Program-made: the position numbers and the translations under genes | Assembly: GCA_012800005.1 (NCBI GenBank) | Contig: JAAZKC010000101.1 | Span: 1 to 38,068 of the forward strand | Direction of reading: 5' to 3' | DNA from: Acholeplasmataceae bacterium | Lineage (GTDB): Bacteria > Bacillota_I > Bacilli_A > Acholeplasmatales > UBA5453 | Length of the DNA: 38,068 nucleotides | Shown: piece by piece, positions 4,999-12,439 of the stretch | Layout: each line of letters begins with the position of its first letter | Numbering within the stretch: position 1 is the stretch's first letter | Notes under the pieces: generated by a model | Seen by the model: the letters and a program-made list of their open reading frames with translations, nothing else | Told to the model about the DNA's origin: nothing | The model's database searches: none

Positions 4999-7863
4999 TT
5001 ATTCAAAAGTTGTAAACCAATCCCCATAAATCTCCATATACATCTCATGTGTACGAGCATATAAGAAAAACTGATTTTCATTTACTGTGACTAAGTTATT
5101 GAAACGTGCTGTATTATCAGTCGTTGCAAACTTAAAGTTTTGTGATAAAAGATATTTATTTAGTAAATGAAGTTTTGTGAAGTTGTTTTCATATTTTGCA
5201 AGAATTGGGTTTAAATAATTTTCTAAAGCTTGTTTAACATTGGTTGGTAACGTTACTGTACCTTCTTCACTATTGGTTTGATAAATATAAATTTTAACTT
5301 GGTTAGCAGAGATTGCATCAGTATCGCTATAAGCATCTAATGCTGGAAGATCATTGCCGTCTTTATCTTTCAAAATAATGTGTTCATAAATTTTATATGC
5401 ATCACTGTCGCGATATTTAATGTCATCATCAATAGTGAACTTAGCACTATGTGCAACAGAACCACCAGTTGTTAAAATTAAATGCCAGCCAAAGTCCGTT
5501 TCTAATAAATCTTCATACAAACTAGGTCTATTGTCTAATTTATTAGTTGGAAAAGATTTATCGATATCATAATATTCCGTTTTAACTTCAGCATAAATTT
5601 CCATAATTCTTTCATAGAATTTATCATCTAATTTAGAACTTTTATCAGGATAATTAGTTTGGTTAGTAGTAGGATTCATTGATTCAAATAAAACTTGAAA
5701 TCCTTCTTTTTTAAAGTCAGCCCATTTACAAGATGGGTCGTTTTTACCTTCTAATGTATTGCAGTTGTCAGGTTTAATTTTAGAACTCTTTTTAAAGTCT
5801 TCTGCAATCGCTCTTAAGCCGTCTGCGATATTAGAATATTGACTTGCCTCATCGTGAACTACTTGCATAAACTCGGTAACCTTACTTCTGTAAGAAGCAC
5901 GTTTTTCTTCTGATAAAGTTTCAAAGAATTCATGTGGTTTATCCGGGTTTTCATCTTCATCCATATCAACATGAATTAAGAAGTGGCTTTGTGATAAACT
6001 AAAATATTGTTCTCTAAGTCTGTTGGCATATAGAGCTAGTTTTTCATAAATTTCTTCACCATAGTGAGCTTCTAAATCTTCTAAATAAAGGTTTTCAACA
6101 TCTGTCTTAATATAAATATTTTCAATCGCCTCGTCAATAGAATTAGCTCTGAATGCTAATTTTAAGAATTTCGCTCTTCCCATTTCTTTTGGAAACCCAC
6201 TTCCTTTAAAGGCGTCGTTAGAGAAATTTCTAATCATATTTTCAATATTAGTTCTATATTCAGCAATTTCTTCATCAGTAACCCTATTTCGATAATCACT
6301 ATTTAATAAAGCCTTACTAACAGCTAAATCCATTGCGGTAGAAACACCTAGTTGTTTTTCAAGCCTTTCATAAAATGTATCAACTTTAATTTCAACATCA
6401 TTAATTTTCGCAACGATGTCTTTTGAAGATTTCTTAGCCATCTTAAATTTTTCATTCCTAAGAATCAAATGAAGTTCTTCATCATAAAATTGTACTTCGG
6501 CTTCATCTAATCTCTTGGTCGCAAGTTCGTTGACATAAGCATCAGTTAATTTAGATTCTTTAATCTTGTGGAAGTATTCTTCTGCATAAGTAGTTAAAAT
6601 AATACCATCATCTTCATAAACTTTAAGTTGGTCTTCATTATTAAGTTGTGCCTTAACATCTTCATTATGATCAGCAAGTTTAAATAAAATATAGTAGTAG
6701 TTACCAAATGATCTTGGTTGTGCAGTAAAGCGAACCCCATCTTCATCGGTAGTTAAAGTATTATATAGATAATTTCTAACTGATGAAAGTTGGTTTCTAG
6801 AACTGATTTTCCAATCATCATACTCTAAAGTGAATAATCCTTTTTCTTCGCCATTGTTAACATATGTAGAATCATCTAATAAACTTTGTAAAGTTGGATA
6901 TAAAGAAACATCAATTTGTTCTTTATATGGATAGGTTTCATTATAGATAACTAATAACATATTAAGTGCTTCATCAATTGTTAACGCTGTATCTGGACCT
7001 TCTAAAATAGGGCGCTCAGGGTTAACTTTGTAATCGTTATAATATAATTTATATTCACTTTCAGTTAACTCTCCAGTACCGTTTTTTTCTTCAAGGTCAA
7101 GTTTTTCTAAGACAGTTAAAGCATAACCTTCAACTATATCAACTCTTGGGTCTGGAATAACATACCACTTTCCAACGTGAGCTTTAATCGAATGTTTTCT
7201 AAGCGTTGCCTCACTTTCGTATAAATTAGAAAATCTTACACTTATATAACTTAAAGGATAGCGTTTCTTAATATTGTTGTCAAAGTAATTACCTAAATCA
7301 ACATCTTTATCAATATAGTTAGTAGAATCGGTATCTAAAACTTCCTCTTCTAATTTTTCACGTGCATAAACTCTTTTGGCAACATCTAATTTATAGTAGT
7401 CTAAAACTTTGTCGTTATGATTATTAAAGTTTTCGCTGTCAATATCAGCTAAAGTAATTGTTACTCCCAACAAACTCATTGCATCAATATAAGATTCAAC
7501 GTTTTTATTAAGCATTGCTTCAGGAATTTCTTTTAATGCATCCATTTCTGTTTGACCAAAGATAGCTTTATTTACGTAATATAAATAGTCATCTTTAAAT
7601 GTTTCTTTATTACTAACTTTTGTTAGTTCATCCTTATATAGAACTTCGTGTAACATTTTTGTTAATGTTTGTGTTCCTGAAAATCTCATTTCTTCGTAAA
7701 GTTCTTTTTCGGTTATTTCAAAGCCGTCAGTAGAAGCGTATACTTTGTCGGTTAGTGAACCGAAAGGAATAGAAGATTTTTTATTTCCACACGCTACTAG
7801 AGTAAGGGTTAAAATTGATAATAGTATAAAACCCCAACTCTTTTTTAATATTTTTTTATTCAC
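4999..7863 (-). CDS. Very large lipoprotein, possibly PrsA/SurA-like foldase
   Basis: The predicted 954-residue precursor begins MNKKILKKSWGFILLS and has a lipobox ending LTLVAC (Cys about residue 25), so it should be an exported, lipid-anchored protein. The track starts it at 8067, but GTG at 7861-7863 is better: AAGGAG lies 8 bases upstream and the signal peptide then begins the protein. The N-terminus after the lipobox (DKVYASTDGFEITEKELYEEM) resembles PrsA/SurA N-termini. Near the C-terminus, ETDFGWHLILTTGG resembles the GxHII end of a parvulin domain, but no complete PpiC domain is clear. A Cys pair (CNTLEGKNDPSC) could form a disulfide. At over three times the size of PrsA, the foldase label is tentative. 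It is monocistronic and divergent from yycJ. Confidence 0.75.
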   Translation of the reverse strand: MNKKILKKSWGFILLSILTLTLVACGNKKSSIPFGSLTDKVYASTDGFEITEKELYEEMRFSGTQTLTKMLHEVLYKDELTKVSNKETFKDDYLYYVNKAIFGQTEMDALKEIPEAMLNKNVESYIDAMSLLGVTITLADIDSENFNNHNDKVLDYYKLDVAKRVYAREKLEEEVLDTDSTNYIDKDVDLGNYFDNNIKKRYPLSYISVRFSNLYESEATLRKHSIKAHVGKWYVIPDPRVDIVEGYALTVLEKLDLEEKNGTGELTESEYKLYYNDYKVNPERPILEGPDTALTIDEALNMLLVIYNETYPYKEQIDVSLYPTLQSLLDDSTYVNNGEEKGLFTLEYDDWKISSRNQLSSVRNYLYNTLTTDEDGVRFTAQPRSFGNYYYILFKLADHNEDVKAQLNNEDQLKVYEDDGIILTTYAEEYFHKIKESKLTDAYVNELATKRLDEAEVQFYDEELHLILRNEKFKMAKKSSKDIVAKINDVEIKVDTFYERLEKQLGVSTAMDLAVSKALLNSDYRNRVTDEEIAEYRTNIENMIRNFSNDAFKGSGFPKEMGRAKFLKLAFRANSIDEAIENIYIKTDVENLYLEDLEAHYGEEIYEKLALYANRLREQYFSLSQSHFLIHVDMDEDENPDKPHEFFETLSEEKRASYRSKVTEFMQVVHDEASQYSNIADGLRAIAEDFKKSSKIKPDNCNTLEGKNDPSCKWADFKKEGFQVLFESMNPTTNQTNYPDKSSKLDDKFYERIMEIYAEVKTEYYDIDKSFPTNKLDNRPSLYEDLLETDFGWHLILTTGGSVAHSAKFTIDDDIKYRDSDAYKIYEHIILKDKDGNDLPALDAYSDTDAISANQVKIYIYQTNSEEGTVTLPTNVKQALENYLNPILAKYENNFTKLHLLNKYLLSQNFKFATTDNTARFNNLVTVNENQFFLYARTHEMYMEIYGDWFTTFE

Positions 7864-7912
7864 TGTTTTCACTCCTTGATTTCTCCTCTTTTTAAAAATT
7901 ACAAGCAATAAT

Positions 7913-7941
7913 AATATAACACAGTTATAAACGGTTTGCAA
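7913..7941 (-). promoter_or_regulatory. Promoter of the large lipoprotein gene
   Basis: Read on the minus strand, -35 TTGCAA (7936-7941) is separated by exactly 17 bases from -10 TATATT (7913-7918). It lies about 50 bases upstream of the chosen GTG start, which also supports that start over the upstream ATG of the track. Confidence 0.65.
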
Positions 7942-8019
7942 TTGTAAATAATGTGCTTTTCTAATTAAGCCTCTTTTAATAATAGCAAAAAAAGAATTAT
8001 TTTTAAAGCCCCAAATGTA

Positions 8020-8028
8020 TGATATAAT
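8020..8028 (+). promoter_or_regulatory. Extended -10 promoter of yycJ
   Basis: TATGATATAAT supplies TG (8020-8021) plus TATAAT (8023-8028). The -35 region is only T-rich. A GGTGATAAA ribosome binding site and the yycJ ATG at 8046 follow. Confidence 0.65.
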
Positions 8029-8045
8029 CATAAAGTGGTGATAAA

Positions 8046-8807
8046 ATGAAGTTTTTAGCAATTGCATCTAGTTCAAAAGGCAACTCAAGTTACTTAGAAA
8101 CTAAGGACATTAAGGCTTTAATTGATGTTGGAATTTCTTATACAAAAATAAAAAAAGCCTTAAAAGAAATTGATGTTAATATAAGTGAGATAACTCATGT
8201 TTTTATTACTCATGAACATAGTGATCATATTAAAGGGCTTAAAATGCTACTTAAACATCATAGTCCTAAAGTTTATTTAACGGAGGGAACCAACTCATAC
8301 CTGAAGTTAGAAAATGCTAATATTATTAAAGCATTAGAGAAAGTAGTCATTAGTGATTTAAGTGTTTTACCAATTCCGCTATCTCATGATGCTAAGGAAG
8401 CTGTTGGATTTGTGCTTGAAAAAGAAAATAAAAGCATTTGTTATATTACTGATACAGGATATATCATTAATGAATTAATTTCTTTGTTAGAAAATCATAC
8501 CCTATATTATTTAGAGAGTAATTATGATCCGTTTACATTACTTCACTCAAAAAGGCCTTACCACCTTAAAAAAAGAATTATTGATGAAAAAGGTCATTTA
8601 TCAAATGAAGAATCTGCTTATTACTTTTCTATTTTAAAAGGTGATAAAACTAAATATTTAATTCATTCTCACATTAGCGAAGAATGTAATACTTTAAAAA
8701 AAATAAAAGAGACCTTTGATACGGTATTAAGAGTTCAAGGCGAAGGGACGGAGTTTAAAAGATATTATGCTTTACCAAATGAAAGCACAGAGTTGATTAT
8801 TTTATGA
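8046..8807 (+). CDS. yycJ: Metallo-beta-lactamase fold hydrolase, YycJ/WalJ family
   Basis: This 253-residue protein is typical for YycJ (WalJ). It begins MKFLAIASSSKGNSSYLE, the hallmark YycJ N-terminus. It carries the metal-binding motif THEHSDH (about 55-61), a further His in PLSHDAKEAVGF, TDTGY as the bridging Asp, and a late His in LIHSHIS. The family is annotated as a 5'-3' DNA exonuclease linked to mismatch repair and, in Bacilli, to the WalRK locus. No walRK genes are next to it here. The 3' end overlaps rlmH by ATGA, as in many Bacillota where yycJ and rlmH are close neighbours. Confidence 0.93.
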   Translation: MKFLAIASSSKGNSSYLETKDIKALIDVGISYTKIKKALKEIDVNISEITHVFITHEHSDHIKGLKMLLKHHSPKVYLTEGTNSYLKLENANIIKALEKVVISDLSVLPIPLSHDAKEAVGFVLEKENKSICYITDTGYIINELISLLENHTLYYLESNYDPFTLLHSKRPYHLKKRIIDEKGHLSNEESAYYFSILKGDKTKYLIHSHISEECNTLKKIKETFDTVLRVQGEGTEFKRYYALPNESTELIIL

Positions 8808-9217
8808 TTATTTTAGCGGTAGGAAAAATTAGAGAAACATTAGAAGAAGAAATTAACTTTTATAAAAAACAAATGCCTAAACTTAAAATAATCGAAATAA
8901 AAGATTCAAATAAAGAAAAAGAAGGAAGACAATTACTTAAATATATGAAAGATAATTATTGTGTTTCTTTATCAATTAAAGGTAAGGCATATGACAGCAT
9001 TTCTTTTTCTAATTTTTTAGAAAAACTAAAGGAAAAGAAAAATTTAACTTTTATTATTGGCGGTTCAGAAGGGTTAAGCGATGAAGTGTTAAAAGAATGT
9101 AGGGAACATATTAGTTTTTCTAAAATGACGTTTCCACATGGATTAATGAGACTGATTTTAGTAGAACAATTATATAGAGCAACTAAAATCAGTGAAAATC
9201 ATCCTTATCATAAGTGA
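8804..9217 (+). CDS. rlmH: 23S rRNA pseudouridine-1915 N3-methyltransferase RlmH
   Basis: This SPOUT-family methyltransferase modifies pseudouridine 1915 in helix 69 of 23S rRNA using S-adenosylmethionine. It is 137 residues long, against about 159 in most species. The core is intact: FIIGGSEGLSDEV (SAM-binding knot, about 83-95), SFSKMTFPHGLMRLILVEQLYRA, and the diagnostic C-terminus NHPYHK. The shortening falls in the N-terminal half, with compact loops. It overlaps yycJ by ATGA, so translation is probably coupled. Confidence 0.95.
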   Translation: MIILAVGKIRETLEEEINFYKKQMPKLKIIEIKDSNKEKEGRQLLKYMKDNYCVSLSIKGKAYDSISFSNFLEKLKEKKNLTFIIGGSEGLSDEVLKECREHISFSKMTFPHGLMRLILVEQLYRATKISENHPYHK

Positions 9218-9226
9218 GGTGTATTT

Positions 9227-10396
9227 ATGATTAAATATGTAATTTGGGATTTCAACGGAACAATTTTGGATGATAAAGAATTATCATTAAACCTTTTAAA
9301 TGAAATTTTAAAAAAACAAGGGAAAAAGCCCGTAGATGAAGAAGCTTATTTAAAACTTTTCGGGTTTCCGATAAAAAAATATTATCTTAAGGCGGGAATT
9401 ACTTTTGAAGAAGAATCATTTGATGATATTGCGAAGTGGTATATCGCAAAATATCAACCTCTTAGCCTTGATTTAAAACTTCATGATGGCGTGGTAGAAA
9501 CACTCATTATTTTAAGAAAAATGGGAATAAAAAATATTTGTCTTTCTGCAAGTCTTCAAAAAAATTTAGAAGAACAACTAAAACACTATGAAATTTATAA
9601 TTATTTTGATTATGTTATTGGAATGGACAATATTAAAACGGAAGGAAAAGAAAAAGTAGGCGCTAGATTTTTAAAAGAACATAAAGTCAACCCTAATGAG
9701 TGTTTATATATTGGGGATACTATTTATGATTATGATGTCGCAAGGAAAATGAGAGTGCGGGCAATCTTATTTAGTGGGGGTCATCAAGCAAAAGAAAGGC
9801 TGCTTAAAAAAACAAAAATAATTATTGATAATATTTATGATATAATATCACTGGTGAATAAAGAACAAAGGAGAAAAAAAGTGAGAAAATTTTTTAAAGA
9901 TTTCGGTAATTTTATCGCGAAAGGAAATGTCCTCGATTTAGCGATAGGGATTATTATAGGAGGCGCATTCAACGCTATTATTAGAAGTGTTGTTAATGAT
10001 TTGTTGATGCCTGTGATTAGTTTAATATTTAGAGCCGATGTTTCTAAAAAGTTTGCTGTTTTAAGAGGAACTGCAGAGTATGTAGCTAATGCTGATACTG
10101 GAGCATTGGAACTAGTTAAATCACCAGATGCAGTATTGCTTTATTGGGGAAATTTCTTACAATCAGTGATAGATTTTCTCATCATTGGTTTAACACTATT
10201 TATTATTATGAGAGTGTTTATGAAATTAAAAGCAAGAAAAGAAGCACATATAGCAGCAATTAAAGCAAAACGTGAAAGTGGAGAACAGTTAACTGAAAAA
10301 GAAGAGGCAGTTCATCCAGAACCAGTTATTCCAGAAGAAATCCTATTATTAAGAGAAATTAGAGATTCACTTAAAAAAGAAGAGGGAAATAAATAA
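9227..10396 (+). CDS. HAD phosphatase fused in frame to MscL (possible two-product gene)
   Basis: One uninterrupted 389-codon frame encodes two unrelated modules. Residues 1-215 are a HAD-superfamily phosphatase: motif I DFNGTILDD (8-16), a CLSAS motif II region, and motif IV IGDTIYDYDVA. This resembles phosphoglycolate-phosphatase-like enzymes with the DxNGT variant. Residues 219-389 are a complete MscL channel. No stop separates them; the linker is NKEQRRKK. A ribosome binding site, a GTG codon and an extended -10 all lie inside the 3' end of the HAD part (see next entries), so MscL may also be made separately. The start ATG follows GAGGTGTATTT, nine bases after rlmH. I infer an operon yycJ-rlmH-HAD(-mscL). 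A true fusion and a lost stop codon remain the two possibilities. Confidence 0.85.
   Translation: MIKYVIWDFNGTILDDKELSLNLLNEILKKQGKKPVDEEAYLKLFGFPIKKYYLKAGITFEEESFDDIAKWYIAKYQPLSLDLKLHDGVVETLIILRKMGIKNICLSASLQKNLEEQLKHYEIYNYFDYVIGMDNIKTEGKEKVGARFLKEHKVNPNECLYIGDTIYDYDVARKMRVRAILFSGGHQAKERLLKKTKIIIDNIYDIISLVNKEQRRKKVRKFFKDFGNFIAKGNVLDLAIGIIIGGAFNAIIRSVVNDLLMPVISLIFRADVSKKFAVLRGTAEYVANADTGALELVKSPDAVLLYWGNFLQSVIDFLIIGLTLFIIMRVFMKLKARKEAHIAAIKAKRESGEQLTEKEEAVHPEPVIPEEILLLREIRDSLKKEEGNK
9838..9846 (+). promoter_or_regulatory. Candidate internal extended -10 promoter for mscL
   Basis: TATGATATAAT (TG 9838-9839, TATAAT 9841-9846) lies inside the HAD coding sequence about 35 bases before the mscL GTG. 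The 11-mer is identical to the yycJ promoter core. A TATAAT in AT-rich coding DNA can arise by chance, so this stays a candidate. Confidence 0.45.
9881..10396 (+). CDS. mscL: Large-conductance mechanosensitive channel MscL (internal start)
   Basis: AAAGGAG (about 9867-9873) lies seven bases before GTG 9881, giving a 171-residue protein starting MRKFFKDFGNFIAKGNVLDLAIG, a normal MscL N-terminus. MscL is a homopentameric pore that opens under membrane tension to release osmolytes. TM1 is GNVLDLAIGIIIGGAFNAIIRSVV, TM2 is WGNFLQSVIDFLIIGLTLFIIMRVFM, and the charged C-terminal helix ends PEEILLLREIRDSLKKE. The periplasmic loop and C-terminal region make it longer than the 136 residues of E. coli MscL. 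A free N-terminal amphipathic helix matters for gating in characterised MscL, which favours internal initiation over an obligatory fusion. It is followed by a terminator. Confidence 0.85.
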   Translation: MRKFFKDFGNFIAKGNVLDLAIGIIIGGAFNAIIRSVVNDLLMPVISLIFRADVSKKFAVLRGTAEYVANADTGALELVKSPDAVLLYWGNFLQSVIDFLIIGLTLFIIMRVFMKLKARKEAHIAAIKAKRESGEQLTEKEEAVHPEPVIPEEILLLREIRDSLKKEEGNK

Positions 10397-10623: not shown

Positions 10624-12333
10624 CTAAAATAATTTTTTTATTTCATCCGCATTTTTAGTAAATTGGTTTAATTTTATTCCGTAATTTTGACTCATTAATT
10701 TTAAATTATCATCAATATAAGTAAGTAAATATTCTTTATTTGATAATTTAAATGCCTGGTATTTTCTTAAAGAATCTACTAGTGATGTTAATGGAATTTT
10801 GTTTTTCATTTTCTTAACTTCAATTACTCTTAATAAAAATAATGCGCTCATACATATTAAGAAATACCCTCTTATTGCTTCCATTTTAGAGTGATAAATT
10901 GGTCTTGTTTCTAGTGTTGTTTTTAAAACTTTAAAAGAATCTTCAATTTGCCAAAGTGCTCTATATGCTTCAACTATTTCAAGAGGTGGAGCCTTAATCT
11001 CGCTTGAAACGAATAAATTAAACCCATCTAACTCGCTATCCTCAATAACTTTTTCATAATCAATACTACGTTCTTTATCGGCGTCCAACTCTTGTCCTAA
11101 ATCATCATACAAAGTCTCTTTAACATATTTACTAGTATGTCCGTAAAGTTCTTTTTTATATCCAGAAGAAGTTTTAATTCTTTTTTCTAACTTACTTAAA
11201 GCCCTATCTCTTTCATATTTTGTCTTTTCTGCATAAGAACGTGACCAATAGGCTATTTGAATTTGTGGAATCTCAACGTCCTTATCTTTATCATCAACAG
11301 TTTTTACTTTAATCTTATCAAAATCATCTATTCTAACCTTATACTTAGCAATTACTTCCTTTTTATCTTTATCTAAAATATCAATATAACCGTTAGGATC
11401 TTTTATCCATTTTTTTACCTCTTCACTAGATCCTCTAACAGATTCAGAAAAAATATAGCCATCACCATCTAAATAAGTCTCTTTAATGTTATCACCAGAA
11501 TTTAAACCTTTATCAGCGATTCTAATGATTTTCCCATTAATATTGTGTTTATCTTTCATCTCTTTAATAACGTCTTTATATAAAGGATATTCAGACTCAT
11601 TACCAGAATACATTTTATAATCAATTGGTATTTTATCTGCGTCTAATAAAAGTGCTAATCCAATAATTGGTTGGTTAGTATTTGATTTACATGGTCCTTT
11701 TTGCATATAGTCATGTGGCTTATCTATCTCAAAGTAAAAGTTCGTGCAGTCAAAATAAACCTTTTTTGTATTACTTCTATATTTTTCACCAAATTTTCTT
11801 CTTAAAATTTCAAATGCTGCTACATCAGCATTATTGCTTCCTAAAGCGAAAATGGCATCATACATTTGATCTTTCGTAAAATTAAAGTCATGATAAAAAG
11901 AATTATACATTGAGTCATATGATTCTAATTTTGAATTAGGATTTAATACTCTAGAGTAAACTAAAAATTCAAAAATTTCTGAAAGTGAATAACGGACATT
12001 TTTTCTTGACATATAAATTATCGCATCAAAATATTTTTTTAAATCTAATTCATTATATAGTTTCTTTAAAGGGAAATAACCTAAGTTTATTAATTTCTTT
12101 TCACCTTCAGGAATTGGATTTGATAAACTATTTTTTCTTCGCTCATTTTCCTCTTTAATCCATTCTTGAAAATGAGCGATAGGATCTACATATTTCTTTT
12201 CAAGTTCATCAAGATATCCTAAAGATTTAAATGTTTTTTGTCTAACGTTTTTAATTTTCGAATCATAAACCGAATCTACAATTGATAAATAAATGCGTCC
12301 ATATTGTGGGGTTCTTTTTAAATAAAGTGCCAT
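10624..12333 (-). CDS. IS1634-type DDE transposase (IS4 superfamily)
   Basis: This 569-residue transposase is full length and uninterrupted. The RNase H-like core shows Asp195 in VYFDCTNFYFE, Asp274 in RIADKGLNSGDN, and Glu464 in YRALWQIEDSFKVLKT. The last is the Y-(2)-R-(3)-E-(6)-K signature of the IS4 group (here YRALWQIE..F.VLK). A long insertion of charged strands separates the second Asp from the Glu, as in IS1634 members. The track begins at 12405, but ATG at 12331-12333 (MALYLKRTPQYGR) is better because AGAGGT precedes it and the promoter lies just upstream. Nothing suggests inactivation. It should cut and paste the element using the flanking inverted repeats. Confidence 0.92.
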   Translation of the reverse strand: MALYLKRTPQYGRIYLSIVDSVYDSKIKNVRQKTFKSLGYLDELEKKYVDPIAHFQEWIKEENERRKNSLSNPIPEGEKKLINLGYFPLKKLYNELDLKKYFDAIIYMSRKNVRYSLSEIFEFLVYSRVLNPNSKLESYDSMYNSFYHDFNFTKDQMYDAIFALGSNNADVAAFEILRRKFGEKYRSNTKKVYFDCTNFYFEIDKPHDYMQKGPCKSNTNQPIIGLALLLDADKIPIDYKMYSGNESEYPLYKDVIKEMKDKHNINGKIIRIADKGLNSGDNIKETYLDGDGYIFSESVRGSSEEVKKWIKDPNGYIDILDKDKKEVIAKYKVRIDDFDKIKVKTVDDKDKDVEIPQIQIAYWSRSYAEKTKYERDRALSKLEKRIKTSSGYKKELYGHTSKYVKETLYDDLGQELDADKERSIDYEKVIEDSELDGFNLFVSSEIKAPPLEIVEAYRALWQIEDSFKVLKTTLETRPIYHSKMEAIRGYFLICMSALFLLRVIEVKKMKNKIPLTSLVDSLRKYQAFKLSNKEYLLTYIDDNLKLMSQNYGIKLNQFTKNADEIKKLF

Positions 12334-12373
12334 GTCTTTTACCTCTTTGTTGTCAAATTTATTGTATATAAAT

Positions 12374-12402
12374 ATTATACAATAATACGCAAGAATATGC
12401 AA
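12374..12402 (-). promoter_or_regulatory. Transposase promoter
   Basis: On the minus strand, -35 TTGCAT (12397-12402), a 17-base spacer and a consensus -10 TATAAT (12374-12379) lie about 40 bases upstream of the transposase ATG. One 10-base repeat AATACGCAAG (12384-12393) falls inside the spacer, so transposase binding there could repress transcription. Confidence 0.7.
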
Positions 12403-12439
12403 CATAAAAGTTAAAAAATATTTTTTTGATTTGACAAAT

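Follow-up and report, generated by a model that had tools for sequence, protein, structure and literature searches.

A hydrolase frame that runs into mscL in one Acholeplasmataceae genome: most likely a harmless by-product of tight gene packing

When the reading frame of a soluble hydrolase continues without a stop into the channel protein MscL, has a bacterium joined an enzyme to a channel, or has a stop codon simply been lost between two neighboring genes? The question is raised by a locus on a contig of an uncultured Acholeplasmataceae bacterium, and the 38,068-nt stretch of DNA that was analyzed is referred to below as the window. The original prediction described a phosphatase frame running unbroken into a full MscL, and the translation bears this out: 389 codons are open from 9227 to 10396 on the forward strand, with no internal stop. 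Pfam places a full HAD_2 domain at residues 5–181 of this frame (1.9e-29) and MscL at residues 222–383 (6.8e-31, profile positions 1–123 of 123). Stop-codon reassignment is irrelevant as an explanation, because the 389-residue frame contains no stop codon.

The first 218 residues (9227–9880, forward strand) form a HAD-superfamily hydrolase part, HAD_2 and IA-like according to its motifs and the Pfam match. Motif I (DFNGT), motif II (LSAS), Lys141 and the GDTxxD motif are intact, and D8, S107, K141 and D164/D168 are invariant in 23 aligned sequences, the pattern that marks the HAD superfamily. The protein resembles the HAD_2/HAD-IA hydrolases (PF13419; phosphoglycolate phosphatase/PpaX-like) in its full-length domain and its motifs II–IV, but motif I of this subfamily reads DxN instead of DxD: in DFNGT (9248–9262 in the window, and in loci L002–L045), N10 is present in 23 of 23 sequences. 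The second Asp of DxD serves as the general acid/base and is usual in classical HAD phosphatases. Because it is missing, standard phosphatase activity may be absent from the HAD part, to judge by the sequence. The earlier label ‘phosphatase’ is unproven with a DxN motif. No NCBIfam HAD equivalog cut-off is reached by this part.

The rest of the frame (9881–10396, forward strand) is a complete MscL of 171 residues, starting from a GTG at 9881–9883 that is also residue 219 of the long frame, and it is the sole MscL match in this genome. It scores 107.6 bits against a Pfam cut-off of 27.4, over profile positions 1–123, and 77.6 against a cut-off of 71 for TIGR00220. As in MscL generally (PF01741/TIGR00220), there is an N-terminal FFKDFGNFIAKGNVLDLAIG, followed by two membrane helices and a C-terminal helix; what differs here is that a longer frame also includes this MscL, as its C-terminal half. 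The helices predicted from a structure model and the alignment (205–231, 246–268, 308–351 and 370–388) reproduce the MscL layout of an N-terminal amphipathic helix, two membrane helices and a cytoplasmic C-terminal helix. Elsewhere, MscL homologues of genus g6 (G053:C69, G084:C57, G499:C28 and others) match in two pieces, residues 1–43 and 85–168, in frames of ~200–276 residues, which suggests a long divergent loop. Just 3′ of mscL in the window lies an IS1634-family transposase gene (10624–12405, reverse strand; NF033559, 293 bits).

Does this MscL have its own means of expression? The ribosome binding site AAAGGAG, the GTG start and the extended −10 element that had been predicted ahead of the MscL part are all present. 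The ribosome binding site (9867–9873, forward strand) ends 7 nt before the GTG at 9881, and the extended −10 TGATATAAT (9838–9846, forward strand) lies inside the last HAD codons (Y-D-I-I), where it is the probable mscL promoter. An identical copy at 8020–8028 on the same strand precedes a metallo-beta-lactamase-fold gene (8046–8807, forward strand; the yycJ of the original prediction) and is probably the promoter of a yycJ-rlmH-HAD(-mscL) operon, in which the second gene encodes an rlmH-like SPOUT methyltransferase (8804–9217, forward strand); both genes are identified by profile matches. On the opposite strand, a 1022-residue open reading frame (4999–8067) has no NCBIfam match at 1e-3 and is conserved in relatives.

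Within the window by itself, the count of TGNTATAAT shows no significant excess (8 found, 5.06 expected). The copy at 9838 is meaningful because it is conserved upstream of mscL in relatives and because the full module, consisting of TGATATAAT, 14–34 nt, AGGAG, 4–12 nt and RTG, occurs nine times in the genome and not once in a reversed control. In 10 of 12 family members, TGATATAAT sits 21–38 nt upstream of the mscL start. Its first Ile codon is always ATA, which accounts for 11–27% of Ile codons in these loci; with so uncommon a codon, amino-acid conservation alone is not enough to explain the conservation of the element. The family loci L002–L011 thus carry a conserved regulatory element within coding sequence, in the last HAD codons (S/Y-D-I-I). 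Another copy of the module, L052, is intergenic and has a stretch of 58 nt that is similar to the junction. The mscL gene very probably has its own transcript, with a predicted start near 9853. A transcript from there cannot encode the fusion, for which an mRNA with a more upstream start is required. With an unbroken frame on the one hand and an independent MscL start and promoter on the other, the two products that had been proposed for this locus are therefore plausible.

Relatives show how the junction is normally built. Wherever both genes were found within the family, in 12 genomes, HAD adjoins mscL; the same holds for several other genomes of the order, and the two are joined only in the genome studied here (G000). 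The other 11 family junctions all carry a stop, ending the HAD frame between 21 nt before and 14 nt after the mscL start. Of these 11, six have HAD and mscL in relative frame 2, four in relative frame 1 and one in relative frame 0. The single in-frame case, G009, is a near-fusion, with only a tandem TAA TAG (L002, 2131–2136) and a short spacer between the two genes. The nearest relative is only ~55–60% identical.

The search for further fusions was also carried beyond the family. MscL is found in 135 of 160 genomes of the order, and the longest other frame among the matches listed is 276 residues, compared with 392 here. Long ‘open frames’ in G068 and G099 were rejected as fusions since they are read-throughs of stops. 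A wider sample of 392 genomes, 266 of them MscL-positive, contains no second long MscL frame among the matches listed, and no relative was found in viral contigs. A targeted search of open-licence papers found no natural HAD-MscL fusion. The recurrence in independent or related genomes that characterizes a conserved, Rosetta-stone-type fusion is thus not seen. The original prediction had conceded that relatives with separate frames would point to a stop simply lost in this strain; that is essentially what is found, although G009 has the two genes in the same frame with two stops between, and the idea of a functional fusion, known from a single genome at a drift-like frequency, is left unsupported.

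How surprising is the missing stop? Twelve random codons of junction composition are free of stops with a chance of 27%. Multiplied by one-third for the frame, this gives ~9% per junction, or about 1 in 12, for being both in frame and stop-free without selection, a rough estimate in which each junction counts as independent of the others and free of constraint. The observed frequency of fused junctions, 1 in 12 family members, equals this drift expectation, and therefore no selection is needed.

The junction itself suggests how the stop may have gone. After the conserved HAD end (...YDIISLV), the octapeptide NKEQRRKK leads up to the GTG; it is encoded by the ribosome binding site together with a run of seven A (9874–9880, forward strand). 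In the alignment of 23 HAD sequences, the tail residues ~211–218 show no conservation in relatives. With one A fewer, HAD would have 218 residues and end in a TGA that overlaps the GTG by 4 nt (GTGA), and the same 4-nt stop/start overlap occurs in four other gene pairs of the window. With one A more, HAD would have 223 residues and stop inside mscL at TTTTTTAA, which is the HAD stop in the close relatives G001 and G003. Given these two outcomes and the overlaps elsewhere in the window, the junction most simply goes back to a change of one base, whether of biological or of technical origin.

We consider it probable that the fusion is real, a lineage-specific read-through that arose by drift, yielding mainly free MscL and, as a by-product, the 389-residue protein. 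In the family, HAD and mscL lie end to end, with the mscL promoter and a ribosome binding site, both conserved, inside the last HAD codons; the HAD tail beyond the last helix would be unconstrained, and its stop would come from whatever the spacer offers. In this lineage, a minor insertion or deletion, for which the A7 tract is the simplest site, would then have brought mscL into frame with HAD and left no stop codon to separate the two. From its own promoter and GTG, mscL would still yield the ordinary 171-residue protein, and the longer yycJ-rlmH-HAD-mscL mRNA would additionally give the 389-residue HAD-MscL protein, which may join pentamers as a tolerated minor subunit.

The main rival is that the same one-base event is an artefact of metagenome assembly or a variant within the population, the true or common state being A6 or A8. 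The familiar 4-nt overlap restored by A6 and the shared stop restored by A8 are in its favor, as is the state of the host genome, an assembly of 1.42 Mb in 167 contigs with 8% estimated contamination. We nevertheless judge it unlikely. No gene is split between frames relative to its homologues in 26.7 kb of aligned window, and no frameshift occurs at the 32 A/T runs of at least 7 in aligned coding DNA, and indel errors are accordingly infrequent along this contig (below ~9% per run by the rule of three). Further, the junction occurs once in the assembly, with no alternative version.

Alternatively, the tract could be tuned for slippage: polymerase or ribosome would slip on A7 beside AGGAG, giving a mixture of the 389-residue fusion and HAD alone and so retaining free enzyme. 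A one-base change in either direction does end HAD within five codons, transcriptional insertions in bacteria climb exponentially with the length of A/T runs (PMC5574713), and for AT-rich symbionts slippage has been suggested as a means of rescuing reading frames (PMC3017870). However, A7 is short for efficient slippage, and the tract is not conserved, since runs of A near the mscL start of relatives reach a length of 3–5 at most, which leaves this reading very unlikely.

We give very little credence to a selected bifunctional protein, in which HAD tethered to MscL would detect or report membrane tension, or gating would be tuned by mixed pentamers. Both domains are intact and the adjacency of HAD and mscL is conserved. 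The N terminus of MscL is cytoplasmic, and attachment of HAD at that end is therefore topologically possible. An AlphaFold2 model of the fusion is confident in both domains (mean pLDDT 93.4, pTM 0.80), with helix 205–231 running unbroken across the junction, from the end of HAD to the N-terminal helix of MscL; the input alignment, however, consists of separate HAD and MscL relatives, and since no other sequence spans the junction, the model is no proof of a functional fusion. Soluble domains have been joined to MscL by design, as in the structures of an MscL-riboflavin synthase fusion (4y7j/4y7k) and in MscL-sfGFP, which is reported to be functional and to behave like wild type (PMC3302805), whereas the present case is natural, has a different partner and places its soluble domain N-terminally. 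Against selection stand the restriction to one genome, with separate products in all close relatives, the unconserved linker at ~211–218 and a frequency equal to drift; a selected tethered channel is unsupported. Scarcely credible, too, is the elaboration in which bifunctional subunits and free MscL from the internal promoter form mixed pentamers, with cytoplasmic enzyme load or gating depending on the two transcripts and possibly also on slippage at A7.

The HAD-MscL fusion is thus most likely a harmless by-product of tight gene packing in one lineage and not a designed enzyme-channel, and its biological effect is likely small. If real, it would offer a natural test of whether MscL can accommodate a bulky soluble partner at its N terminus. 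The locus would then be a snapshot, too, of the birth of a gene fusion: where genes are closely packed, the tail is free of constraint and the internal promoter is kept, a stop can be lost without loss of the downstream product.
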